A stretch of 64,000 bases of DNA, from assembly GCF_900155525.1 (NCBI RefSeq), contig NZ_LT706943.1, positions 117,115 through 181,114 of the forward strand, read 5' to 3'. The notes beneath the pieces were generated by a model. The model made no database searches. It worked only from the letters and a program-made list of their open reading frames with translations, and was not told where the DNA came from. The DNA is from Mailhella massiliensis (GTDB taxonomy: Bacteria > Desulfobacterota > Desulfovibrionia > Desulfovibrionales > Desulfovibrionaceae). The position numbers and the translations under genes were made by a program. Of this stretch, positions 5,341-8,687 are shown piece by piece (positions within the stretch are counted from its first letter, which is position 1; each line of letters begins with the position of its first letter).

Positions 5341-6084
5341 TCAGCCCGCCATGGGACAGAAGCGGGGAAGGCCGAAAATGCGGGCCGCGGCTGCGCCGGA
5401 AATGCCGAAGAAGAGTACGGGCCGGCCGATGTCCACAAAGTTGACGAAGGTGCCGTTGCAGAGCGTGCTGCCCGTGCAGAGCACAAGGTCGGGCCATTCC
5501 AGCACGGCGTCGCGGTAGCTTTTCTCTCCGTGCTCTATGGTGATGCCGGAACGGATGCTGCCCACGAACTGCGGATTCATGTCCAGCACACGCAGGGAAA
5601 ATTCCTGAGAGAGGCGGGCGGTGAGAGCGGGCTGATAGCCTGCCAGCGTGATGCGGGGATGATGGAAATGCCCGCGTATATAGGCGGCGCAGGCCTCGGC
5701 GCAGGCTTCCAGTTCGTTGTTGCGGCAATGGACGGTGCGGTCGATATCGCCGGTGAAGCGCATGACGGCGTTGAGCGTGGCGACAAGAAGTCCCCTGCTG
5801 TGGGGGTCGTTTTCCGGGTCGAGCGCCAGAATTTCCGCAAGCGTGCCGCTGAAGTCGGCGGGGGCGTCGGTAAAGGCCTGCCCCAGAGCTTCGCCGAAGC
5901 GGGCCTGAAGCATGATTTCCTTGCCCGCGAGGATAGGATAATCCTTACGCACGGTGTTGCCGATGGCCTCTTCCGGGGAGAGACCGCGACTTTTCAGGAT
6001 AATGGGGCTTTCATCCAGATGATGCAGCCGCATCAGGTTTTCCAGTTCCTGCCTGAGACGACGGTACAGTTCCTGCGTGGTCAT
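5341..6084 (-). CDS. DUF4213/DUF364 protein (putative metal-chelation Rossmann-like domain)
   Basis: The 247-aa soluble protein has an N-terminal DUF4213-like enolase-N-type segment (about residues 1-95) and a C-terminal DUF364 domain (about 100-240). Recognisable stretches are YIRGHFHHPRITLAGYQPAL, VLCTGSTLCNGT and LFFGISGAAAARIFGLPRFCP. The family is described as putative heavy-metal chelation and often sits beside metal or molybdopterin-related genes; its biochemical role is not established. It is the last gene of the transporter operon and its start overlaps the ATPase stop by 4 nt (ATGA), so it is translationally coupled to molybdate/tungstate import. A role in handling the imported oxyanion or a metal-cofactor intermediate is an inference from context only. 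Confidence 0.85.
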   Translation of the reverse strand: MTTQELYRRLRQELENLMRLHHLDESPIILKSRGLSPEEAIGNTVRKDYPILAGKEIMLQARFGEALGQAFTDAPADFSGTLAEILALDPENDPHSRGLLVATLNAVMRFTGDIDRTVHCRNNELEACAEACAAYIRGHFHHPRITLAGYQPALTARLSQEFSLRVLDMNPQFVGSIRSGITIEHGEKSYRDAVLEWPDLVLCTGSTLCNGTFVNFVDIGRPVLFFGISGAAAARIFGLPRFCPMAG

Positions 6085-6800
6085 GCGTCCTCCAGTCCGA
6101 GAAAGGTATTGAGCTCGGCATCGCCGCTGCGGGTGAAAAGTTCCTGAGCCGAACGGATACAGAGCATCCTGCCTCGGGCCATGATGCCTATGCGCGAGGC
6201 CAGCAGTTGCGCCTCCCTGAAATCGTGGGTGACGAAGAGCACCGCGCAGTGGAACTTTTGGGGTATGCTCCCTATTTCTTCATACAGGCTTTTTCTTGTG
6301 GCCGGATCGAGGGAGGAAAAGGGTTCGTCGAGAAGGAGCAGGCGGGGATTCAGCACCAGCGCGCGGGCCAGCGCGACGCGTTGCTTTTCCCCGCCGCTCA
6401 GGGTTTGAGGATATTCCTCAAGAATATGGTCGATGGAGAGAAGGGAGGAGATTTCCCTTACCTTTTCTTCCTGCTCCGCGCGGCTTCTGCGGCGTACTCT
6501 GAGGCCGTAGGTGATGTTTTTTTCCACGGTCATGTGGGGAAAGAGCGCGTAATCCTGATAGACGAAGCCGATGCGTCGTTCCGTGAGGGGGATGTCCTGT
6601 ACGGGAGCGCCGTAGAGCAGCACCCGTCCTCTTTCCGGGGTGTAGAATCCTGCGGCCGATTCCAGCAGCAGCGTCTTGCCCGCGCCCGTACGGCCGAGCA
6701 CGGCGAATATTTCCCCTTCTTCCACGGAAAAGGAAATGTCGCGCATGTGCATGTTGCCTCGCGTGAGGCAGAAGGATTCGAAGGCGAGGGGAGTCGTCAC
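6081..6800 (-). CDS. ABC transporter ATP-binding protein (molybdate/tungstate type)
   Basis: This 239-aa ATPase powers the importer formed with the adjacent permease. The Walker A motif is GRTGAGKT, the Q-loop lies in GFVYQDYALFPHM, the ABC signature is LSGGEKQRVALARAL, Walker B is LLLLDEPFSSLD and the switch His is in VTHDFREA. It is shorter than E. coli ModC and lacks the C-terminal molybdate-binding MOP domain. It therefore resembles the WtpC/TupC or short ModC group. It overlaps the genes on both sides by 4 nt. Specificity for molybdate versus tungstate cannot be decided from this subunit. Confidence 0.93.
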   Translation of the reverse strand: MTTPLAFESFCLTRGNMHMRDISFSVEEGEIFAVLGRTGAGKTLLLESAAGFYTPERGRVLLYGAPVQDIPLTERRIGFVYQDYALFPHMTVEKNITYGLRVRRRSRAEQEEKVREISSLLSIDHILEEYPQTLSGGEKQRVALARALVLNPRLLLLDEPFSSLDPATRKSLYEEIGSIPQKFHCAVLFVTHDFREAQLLASRIGIMARGRMLCIRSAQELFTRSGDAELNTFLGLEDA

Positions 6801-7603
6801 CAGGCGCCGTCCTCCATGCGGCTTGCCGCACGGCGCTGCAGCAGGGTGGTCATGAGAAGCGCCGTGCCGGAAATGATGAGCAGAATGATGGCTGCGGCCA
6901 TGGCCATGCCGTTATCGCCGGTACTGATGTTGAGGTAGATGCTTGCGGGCAGGGTTTCCGTTTTCATGCGCGTGACGCCCACGAGCATGAGCGTGGCCCC
7001 GAATTCCCCTATGGCGCGAGACCATGTAAGGATGGCCGCCATGAGTATGGAATTGCGGCACAGAGGCAGCGTGATGGTGCAGAACCTCTGCCAGCGGGAA
7101 GCTCCCAGCGTGCCGGCGATGAATTCCAGCCTGCCGTCCATTTCCTCAAGCGCCGTGCGCATGAGCCGTATCACGAAGGGAATGTTGACGATCCACTGAG
7201 CCATGACGATGCCCGCAGGTTCGAAGATGACCCGTATGCCGAACGTCTTGAGAAGTCTTCCCGCCTCGGAGGAAAACATCATGAGCAGGCACAGACCGAG
7301 CACCAGATAGGGCAGGGAAAGGGGCAGTTCCAGCACCAGGCGGCAGAGGTTGCGCAGCGGCATACGGCATCGGGCCAGCGCGTAGGCGCAGGGAATGCCC
7401 ACCGCGAAGCACAGCAGGGTGGAAATGGTGGAGGTGACGAGGCTCAGCCGGATGGAGAAGAGCACTTCCTGCGAACGGAGCGCCCCGGGCAGAAAGGGCA
7501 GGCCTCCTATGATGATGGTGCACAGCGAGGCGGTGAGGAAAATCACCGTGACGAAGGCGACGCACAGGCTTGCGCCGTCGAAGAAAGACAGATTCCGTTT
7601 CAT
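6797..7603 (-). CDS. ABC transporter permease (molybdate/tungstate type, ModB/WtpB-like)
   Basis: The 268-aa integral membrane protein has about six hydrophobic segments, the first near residues 12-35. The cytoplasmic coupling loop carries the EAA-type motif GTLGASRWQRFCTITLP about 60 residues before the end of the membrane core, the site that contacts the ATPase. It is the binding-protein-dependent transport permease of the oxyanion importer. It begins 83 nt after the binding-protein gene and overlaps the ATPase gene by 4 nt. The 83-nt gap contains a small GC hairpin (around 7666-7681) without a good U-run, perhaps damping expression relative to the binding protein. Confidence 0.92.
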   Translation of the reverse strand: MKRNLSFFDGASLCVAFVTVIFLTASLCTIIIGGLPFLPGALRSQEVLFSIRLSLVTSTISTLLCFAVGIPCAYALARCRMPLRNLCRLVLELPLSLPYLVLGLCLLMMFSSEAGRLLKTFGIRVIFEPAGIVMAQWIVNIPFVIRLMRTALEEMDGRLEFIAGTLGASRWQRFCTITLPLCRNSILMAAILTWSRAIGEFGATLMLVGVTRMKTETLPASIYLNISTGDNGMAMAAAIILLIISGTALLMTTLLQRRAASRMEDGAW

Positions 7604-7686: not shown

Positions 7687-8424
7687 TCAGTTCAGCACCA
7701 CATAGCCGTGCTTTTCCCAGATGGCCTTTGCCTCGCCGGAAGAAAGGAAATCCAGAAAGAGCTTCTGCCCTTCGGGATTGGTGGAAACGGAGAGCGTGGC
7801 GGCGGGAATGGTCTTCACATAGGCGTCCATGGCGGGATCGGCGAGAATGTCCATGGCGGCCGTCACGTTTTCCTTCCACACGATGACGGCGTCGCATTCG
7901 CCCACGTTCAGCGCATTGAAGATGGAGGGCGCGGTCACGCCGCGGCTCACCACGTTGACCTTGCCCGTGAGGCCTGCGTCGGCAAGGGCCTTGTCCGCAA
8001 TCTTGCCTATGGGCGTGGCCTTGGCGTCGCCGAGCACCACGCGAAGATCGCTTCTGCCCAGATCACGGATGCCGGAAATCTTTTTGGGGTTGCCTTTGGC
8101 TACGGCCAGCACGGGAATGTGCTTTACGAGATCGCGCGTTGCGGCCACATATTTTTTCACGGGCCGGAGTTCTTCCGCCGCACCGGCGATGAAGAAGTCG
8201 CCTTCCTGCGCGGTATTGATCTGCGACTGTATCTGACCGGCGTTGGCGTAGGTCACTTCCATCGGGACCTGCGTCTTTTGGGTGAAGGCGGCGGCTATTT
8301 CGCCGAAGGGTCTGGTCATGCCCGCGCCGCAGTACACATGCAGGGCCTTTTCCGCCAGAGCGGAAGAAGGAATCATGAAAGCCAGGGCCGCTGCAACACA
8401 AAGGAAGAGGGGAAATCTTTTCAT
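7687..8424 (-). CDS. modA: Molybdate/tungstate ABC transporter substrate-binding protein
   Basis: The 245-aa periplasmic protein starts with a clear signal peptide (MKRFPLFLCVAAALAFM, cleavage after SALA near residue 24). The mature part is a type II periplasmic binding protein of the ModA family: LHVYCGAGMTRPFGEIAAAF, then AGQIQSQINTAQEGDFFIAG, then ECDAVIVWKENVTAA. A longer frame reaches upstream into the leader, but the ATG at 8424 has GGAGA 5-6 nt upstream and the signal peptide directly after it. It captures molybdate or tungstate for the permease and ATPase encoded next. The 5' leader contains a Moco/Tuco-type riboswitch, so expression is probably repressed when the cofactor is abundant. 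Molybdate versus tungstate preference is not resolved. Confidence 0.9.
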   Translation of the reverse strand: MKRFPLFLCVAAALAFMIPSSALAEKALHVYCGAGMTRPFGEIAAAFTQKTQVPMEVTYANAGQIQSQINTAQEGDFFIAGAAEELRPVKKYVAATRDLVKHIPVLAVAKGNPKKISGIRDLGRSDLRVVLGDAKATPIGKIADKALADAGLTGKVNVVSRGVTAPSIFNALNVGECDAVIVWKENVTAAMDILADPAMDAYVKTIPAATLSVSTNPEGQKLFLDFLSSGEAKAIWEKHGYVVLN

Positions 8425-8530
8425 GGGATTCTCCACGCCGCGCACATGCGCGATTCCGGTGTTGCTCACAGACGAAAACAACGGAACCAGAATACCGGCA
8501 TGATGCGGGCATGGTTCAAGGCAGCGTTTT
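8425..8530 (-). promoter_or_regulatory. Putative expression platform of the modA riboswitch (terminator/antiterminator)
   Basis: In the transcript, GAACCAUGCC (from 8517 down to 8508) can pair with UGGUUC (8489-8484) plus GGUA inside it, leaving a small UUC bulge. A U-rich stretch GUUGUUUUCGUC follows, giving a terminator-like hairpin. The same left arm overlaps CCAUGCCCG (8514-8506), which is exactly complementary to CGGGCAUGG (8543-8535), the 3' arm of the aptamer closing stem. Aptamer closure and this antiterminator pairing are therefore mutually exclusive. The pairings are read from the sequence; the regulatory outcome is inferred. Confidence 0.55.
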
Positions 8531-8625
8531 CTTTCCATGCCCGGAGGGGCATTCAGGGAGGCGGGGCCGTTTCCAGCGCCCACCCTGTGAGCAGAAACTC
8601 AGGTCGGAGGGGCATGGCGTTTTGC
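8531..8625 (-). ncRNA. Moco/Tuco-type riboswitch aptamer upstream of modA
   Basis: Read on the minus strand, the leader matches the layout of the Moco RNA motif known from E. coli moaA. A closing stem P1 is formed by CCAUGCCC (8617-8610) and GGGCAUGG (8542-8535). It is followed by the conserved CUCCGACCUG, a short inner hairpin, CAGGGUGGGC, a stem capped by a GAAA tetraloop, then CCGCCUCCC, and the conserved UGGAAAG straight after P1. The P2/P3 region is very short (CCUG...CAGG with a GAG/CUC minihelix). In published work, Moco motifs lacking a full P3 were proposed to sense the tungsten cofactor. Its position before a molybdate/tungstate transporter fits the class. Confidence 0.82.
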
Positions 8626-8658: not shown

Positions 8659-8687
8659 AAATAGAACAAGCATGATTTCCTTGTCAA
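8659..8687 (-). promoter_or_regulatory. Sigma70-type promoter of the modA operon
   Basis: On the minus strand a perfect TTGACA (8687-8682) is followed after 17 nt by CTATTT (8664-8659), a weaker -10. It lies about 40 nt before the riboswitch aptamer, so transcription would start just ahead of the riboswitch. Confidence 0.6.

Follow-up and report, generated by a model that had tools for sequence, protein, structure and literature searches.

Identity of the aptamer and its genomic setting

Few Moco riboswitches have had the route from binding to gene control worked out, and the leader considered here, which lies within a 64,000-nucleotide stretch of Mailhella massiliensis DNA (the window), raises the question of how the state of an aptamer could be conveyed to the start of a modA-like gene (8424) that lies 88 nt beyond the end of the aptamer match. 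All window features described below are on the minus strand. A covariance-model scan with RF01055 (Moco riboswitch) matches positions 8658-8512 over the full model, with 63.6 bits against a gathering score of 36 (E 5.8e-13), which bears out the Moco motif named in a preliminary description of this DNA and places it further upstream than the 8625-8484 given there. The stems P1-P5 are present in computed folds; the Rfam alignment puts a GAAA loop, a GNRA tetraloop, on P4; CUA and AUG are aligned to the consensus at the P2 tetraloop receptor (alignment only); and all five P3 pairs of the consensus are aligned in the window sequence, so that the P3 earlier called minimal is complete. In the folds, P1 consists of GUUUUC (8648-8643) paired with GAAAAC (8531-8526), a few positions away from where Rfam places it.

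Downstream, in the molybdenum-gene context associated with RF01055, lie genes for a modA-like substrate-binding protein (7687-8424; PF13531, 153.8 bits; TIGR01256 modA, 61.4 bits, just below its cut-off of 62.5), whose start was set from a Shine-Dalgarno sequence, GGAG (8431-8434), and a signal peptide; a modB-type permease (6797-7603; TIGR01581, 217.9 bits, cut-off 210.3); and a modC-type ABC ATPase (6081-6800; PF00005; its top NCBIfam match, WtpC, is below its own cut-off). Judged by its sequence, the window leader is a true Moco riboswitch aptamer preceding modABC-type genes. A DUF364 gene (putative heavy-metal chelation; 5341-6084, minus strand) directly follows the modC-type gene. Upstream of the aptamer, TTGACA (8682-8687) is a weak candidate -35 box that is also found upstream of related leaders, for which TCTATT (8665-8660) would serve as the -10 box with a spacer of 16 nt; the promoter scan found none.

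A survey of the family found an RF01055 match at E up to 0.001 in 17 of 288 genomes, and a match over the cut-off in 15 of the 288. Within Mailhella, 10 of 19 genomes carry the riboswitch (eight of them twice, one three times and one once), in two classes, one before modA and the other before a gene for a MoCF_biosynth-domain protein (seen in L001). The comparisons below use 13 aligned leaders with the modA-class platform, 11 from Mailhella and two from another genus (L003, L015); four of the 13 (L003, L015, L010 and L020) do not lead directly into modA. Dropped from the counts were L007 (the same leader as L006), L025 (near-identical to L023), L017, L018 and L057 (below the family cut-off), and L056 and L058 (another family); L013, L016 and L004 were measured separately. 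L010 (L045) and L020 (L052) are second copies of the modA-type leader that retain a Shine-Dalgarno sequence and an ATG followed by roughly twelve codons resembling those of modA, and modA was not found after either copy.

A conserved strand facing the Shine-Dalgarno sequence

In one of two competing folds of the leader (fold 1), the strand CCAUGCC (8514-8508), which in the alternative fold is the 5' part of a different hairpin (hairpin C), can pair with GGCGUGG (8439-8433), the arm that carries the Shine-Dalgarno sequence; this arm reads GGCAUGG across the leaders and GGCGUGG in the window. A strand complementary to the Shine-Dalgarno sequence is kept in relatives, as would be expected of a translational riboswitch: at least five contiguous pairs are found in 11 of the 13 leaders, and the helix is absent in L005 and L003. 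Two pairs have changed on both sides (A-U to G-C in L020, C-G to A-U in L024), a number matched in 36 of 500 shuffles, and the covariation support for the helix is accordingly modest. In L020, where CCAUGC has become CCGUGC, the Shine-Dalgarno arm covaries (GCACGG) and the P5 arm is unchanged; on these comparisons CCAUGCC appears better supported as an anti-Shine-Dalgarno strand than as a strand of a terminator switch.

Between the two arms of this helix, hairpin A (8454-8486; arms 8486-8477 and 8463-8454) has nine of ten pairs in the window and at least nine of ten in 11 of the 13 leaders, with two pairs changed on both sides (as many in 9 of 500 shuffles). Hairpin B (CGCGC..GCGCG, 8439-8452) is possible in the window, where the minimum free energy (MFE) fold prefers longer-range pairs; it is common among the leaders, with covariation no better than in shuffles.

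Regulation could also proceed mainly through Rho-dependent termination, if with cofactor bound an untranslated or altered leader exposed a Rho site. Two reports on the Escherichia coli moaA leader describe Rho-dependent 3' ends (PMC7815308) and termination inferred from RNA-seq (PMC12121620), and Rho action could come on top of a translational switch. As the main output, however, it seems unlikely in a leader whose conserved helix contacts the Shine-Dalgarno sequence itself.

A candidate anti-aptamer strand in the expression platform

The platform holds a second conserved element. The noncoding segment GUUUUCnnnCUGUGAGC is a nested complement of the 3' strands of P1 and P3 in all 13 leaders. 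In the window this anti-aptamer strand, GUUUUC-GUC-UGUGAGC (8479-8464), is complementary to the P1 3' arm (8526-8531) and to GCUCACAG (8585-8592), which comprises the P3 3' arm and the next junction; the P3 side amounts to eight pairs in 11 leaders and seven in two, and the P1 side to six pairs in all 13. Between the paired strands of this alternative fold (fold 2) forms hairpin C, AACCA (8516-8512) with UGGUU (8485-8489), in which three pairs have changed on both sides. The anti-aptamer arms are nearly invariant in the 13 leaders, so that covariation cannot test their helices.

Conservation of the segment stands out from that of the surrounding platform. When L005, the most divergent Mailhella leader, is compared with the others of its genus, identity is 0.98 in the anti-aptamer footprint and 0.35 elsewhere, which makes the footprint the best-kept place of the platform; between the two genera the values are 0.95 and 0.46, and the footprint is tied for best, and for L015 against L003 alone the conservation peak falls a few columns past it. 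A coding origin of the segment was rejected, because its distance to the ATG varies in frame among the leaders. Across the 19 Mailhella genomes, the anti-aptamer pattern has 16 matches in 10 genomes, 11 of them just past a Moco aptamer, and none in the nine genomes that lack the riboswitch; the same pattern written backward, as a control, has zero matches in all 19. The other five matches, elsewhere in the genome, are identical to one another and have a shorter spacer; GTTTTCAGTGTGAGC occurs once each in G187:C188, G189:C24, G191:C8, G192:C1:1792520 and G194:C31, away from the Moco riboswitch.

That GUUUUCnnnCUGUGAGC serves some other role, as a site for a protein or a small RNA, with its complementarity to the aptamer incidental, would agree with its position in the loop of hairpin A, loops being common binding sites, and with the occurrence of the 8-bp complement alone in 594 of 20000 shuffles. 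A nested double complement this large, by contrast, arose in just 10 of the 20000 shuffled versions of the segment, and the occurrence of GUUUUCnnnCUGUGAGC tracks the presence of the aptamer across the genus, both of which make an incidental complementarity improbable. Pairing of the segment with the aptamer is the reading preferred here. Unconstrained ViennaRNA MFE prediction returns the aptamer fold in six of the 13 leaders and the anti-aptamer fold in seven. The energy balance of the two folds in the window is unremarkable against shuffles (z 0.4; in a second test, 38 of 40 shuffles gave the same value or a lower one), and in a test of anti-aptamer energy the values of four of the 13 leaders (L005, L020, L015, L003) were equalled or undercut by no more than 4 of 60 shuffles.

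Computed coupling of the aptamer to the start site

The connection between aptamer and start site was computed as an opening cost, the free energy needed to open positions -14 to +9 around the ATG, with P1 closed or with the P1 5' arm kept free. With the states defined in this way, closing the aptamer raises the cost in 10 of the 13 leaders (median +1.5); with another definition of the states it does so in 12 of 13 (median 3.4 kcal/mol), and when the start region is narrowed a rise is seen in 10 of 13, with a median of just 0.6. As the leaders are related, these counts are not independent. The mean of the modA class is +1.78; 40 sets with shuffled platforms gave 0.27 (sd 0.34, largest 1.23). 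Individually, the window leader, with a difference of +4.9 that was reached by none of 40 shuffles, is joined by L012 and L020 in exceeding all 40; the differences for L005, L011, L026 and L015 are unexceptional beside the 40 shuffles, and in L015 the sign is reversed. In fold 2, GGAG taken by itself gains more than 0.05 in unpaired probability in only three of the 13 leaders and loses more than 0.05 in four; this measure, unlike the opening cost, does not back a dependence of Shine-Dalgarno access on the aptamer state.

The leaders L013 and L016 (genus g40) likewise have a Moco aptamer before modA, an anti-Shine-Dalgarno strand and the same sign of coupling (+7.8 and +7.3, each reached by 0 of 30 shuffles). 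Their platform is different: it is without the GUUUUCnnnCUGUGAGC strand, and the anti-Shine-Dalgarno strand is UACCUUU. In L013, the Shine-Dalgarno hairpin is in the MFE fold of both states.

From what was computed, namely the aptamer, the complementarities, their conservation, two competing folds and the coupling of aptamer to start site, we infer the identity of the ligand, its binding, the sense in which expression responds, and that the controlled step is translation. The leader is probably a Moco riboswitch with P3 that switches modABC off by masking the ribosome-binding site. When cofactor is bound, P1, P3 and P5 would be closed and hairpin A could form, and CCAUGCC would pair with GGCGUGG across the Shine-Dalgarno sequence, leaving modA untranslated. 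Without cofactor, GUUUUC together with CUGUGAGC would capture the P1 and P3 3' strands, hairpin C would hold CCAUGCC, and the start region would be cheaper to open, so that modA would be translated. The leader thus offers a concrete two-state model, in which one strand opens the aptamer and a separate strand acts on the start site.

This model departs in its platform from the member that regulates E. coli moaA (Regulski et al. 2008, PMC2408646), with which the window leader shares the same aptamer with P3. There, repression is recorded in a translational fusion and the ribosome-binding site is described within the P1 stem, whereas in the window this site is found some 90 nt further downstream, where a separate strand pairs with it, and an extra strand is able to take P1 and P3 apart. 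Predicted OFF control of molybdenum genes at translation is common to both, modABC is a known target of the motif, and the platform in the window is most likely translational. In a literature search that covered few subscription papers, none joined 'Mailhella' with 'riboswitch', and under the names of the riboswitch no title or abstract opening describes the window platform or an ON-type Moco riboswitch.

Cofactor specificity and transcription termination

The preliminary description had suggested sensing of the tungsten cofactor. In support of such a ligand, the genome encodes an AFOR_C protein, a family that includes tungsten enzymes. Transporters of the mod type may also carry tungstate (PMC2408646). 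The reading is nevertheless unsupported because P3 is present, and the RNAs tied to Tuco in the sorting given in that paper are those lacking P3; we consider a tungsten-cofactor sensor very improbable at this locus.

The same description had the leader act by transcription attenuation, with CCAUGCCCG as the left arm of an intrinsic terminator freed by ligand binding. The proposal that a switch ahead of modA is turned off by its ligand agrees with our results; the terminator does not. The complementarity behind it is real, CGGGCAUGG (8543-8535) being the exact complement of CCAUGCCCG (8514-8506), 20 nt on, and the AUGCCC copy noted inside the aptamer is present in the sequence. Yet CGGGCAUGG, assigned there to the closing stem as its 3' arm, is the P5 3' arm by sequence, Rfam alignment and folds, and its pairing with CCAUGCCCG is broken in four of the 13 leaders (L005, L006, L026, L003), shows not one two-sided pair change among the 13, and is no better than in shuffles (500 of 500 scored at least as high). 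As to the hairpin itself, 501 bases of the window hold one five-pair stem against 0.9 expected from shuffles. A script covering the 13 modA-class and seven sister-class leaders found none in the 13 at a strict setting (6 pairs, 4 GC pairs, 6 U in 8), the longest U-run being 4, and at least one candidate in three of the 13 at a looser setting (5, 3, 5). Terminator attenuation was rejected, the tool scan and the script having returned nothing above chance.

As the window RNA is lengthened step by step, its computed fold moves from the aptamer (125-134 nt) to the CGGGCAUGG/CCAUGCCCG pairing (143-165 nt) and back to the aptamer (170 nt), and later from fold 2 (185-210 nt) to fold 1 once the Shine-Dalgarno arm has emerged (225 nt). 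Because it appears in the nascent folds of 143-165 nt, the P5-arm pairing may be a folding intermediate, and a kinetic folding decision is plausible. Among relatives, L004 has a 12-pair terminator-like hairpin with a U-rich tail (L004:1393-1362, minus strand; one found, 0.6 expected), the left arm of which includes GCGUUUUC and holds GCGTTTTC, complementary to the L004 P1 3' arm; from its sequence, the kind of mechanism first proposed for the window may exist there. For the window leader, an intrinsic terminator is hardly credible: the nascent P5-arm pairing, the L004 hairpin and the terminators reported for some other Moco RNAs (PMC2408646) speak in its favour, against which stand a pairing without covariation, the lack of any terminator above chance, and a four-U stretch that belongs to the anti-aptamer strand.

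A sister riboswitch with opposite computed coupling

The source genome has one more RF01055 match, on a different contig: a second Moco riboswitch, L001 (L067; G000 contig C27, 590125-590269, plus strand), which heads a MoCF_biosynth-domain gene followed by a gene for a 916-aa molybdopterin aldehyde oxidoreductase. L001 and six more Mailhella leaders have the aptamer class in common with the window leader. A molybdopterin-binding aldehyde oxidoreductase is encoded downstream of L001, L009, L014, L022 and L023; for L019 and L027, no match to one was found within the approximately 800 bases of sequence available past the riboswitch.

In this class, unlike that of the window, the coupling has the opposite sign and the Shine-Dalgarno region (GAGC) can itself pair with the P5 5' arm (AAUGCUC), as seen in the open folds, most clearly in L001, L014, L019 and L027. 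Opening the start region costs less with the aptamer closed in six of the seven leaders (median -2.7), and the class mean of -3.07 compares with -0.44 (sd 0.69, lowest -1.70) in shuffles; the difference between the modA and sister classes gives a Mann-Whitney p of 0.0012, a value that is too small given that the sequences are related. Given this reversal of sign in the computed coupling, the analysis suggests that the riboswitch before the molybdenum aldehyde oxidoreductase operon is an ON switch, and the shuffle-controlled folding likewise suggests that the sister switches are oppositely wired. A stretch resembling CUGUGAGC precedes the start codon in L001 and L009; long anti-aptamer pairing by CUGUGAGC is present in these two alone (by eye) and is not claimed for the whole sister class.

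We tentatively propose a physiological rationale, which is possible and somewhat doubtful as a whole: within one genus, the cofactor may shut down a molybdate importer and allow an operon for a molybdenum aldehyde oxidoreductase to be translated, and in related genera a Moco riboswitch instead precedes a Moco-independent PF00171 enzyme, so that a shortage of cofactor would raise import and exchange a molybdenum enzyme for a molybdenum-free one. The window and sister leaders together yield a sharp prediction, that two genes respond oppositely to one cofactor; if this is true, a single aptamer class would be wired both ways within one genome, and either direction would make metabolic sense. A Moco riboswitch lies about 230-650 nt before an aldehyde dehydrogenase gene in L015 (L050), L004 (L055) and L003 (L039), and cofactor-controlled switching of isozymes could occur at these loci. 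The aldehyde dehydrogenase belongs to PF00171 in L015 and L004, and by eye in L003, and all three genomes also encode the molybdenum-enzyme domain PF02738.
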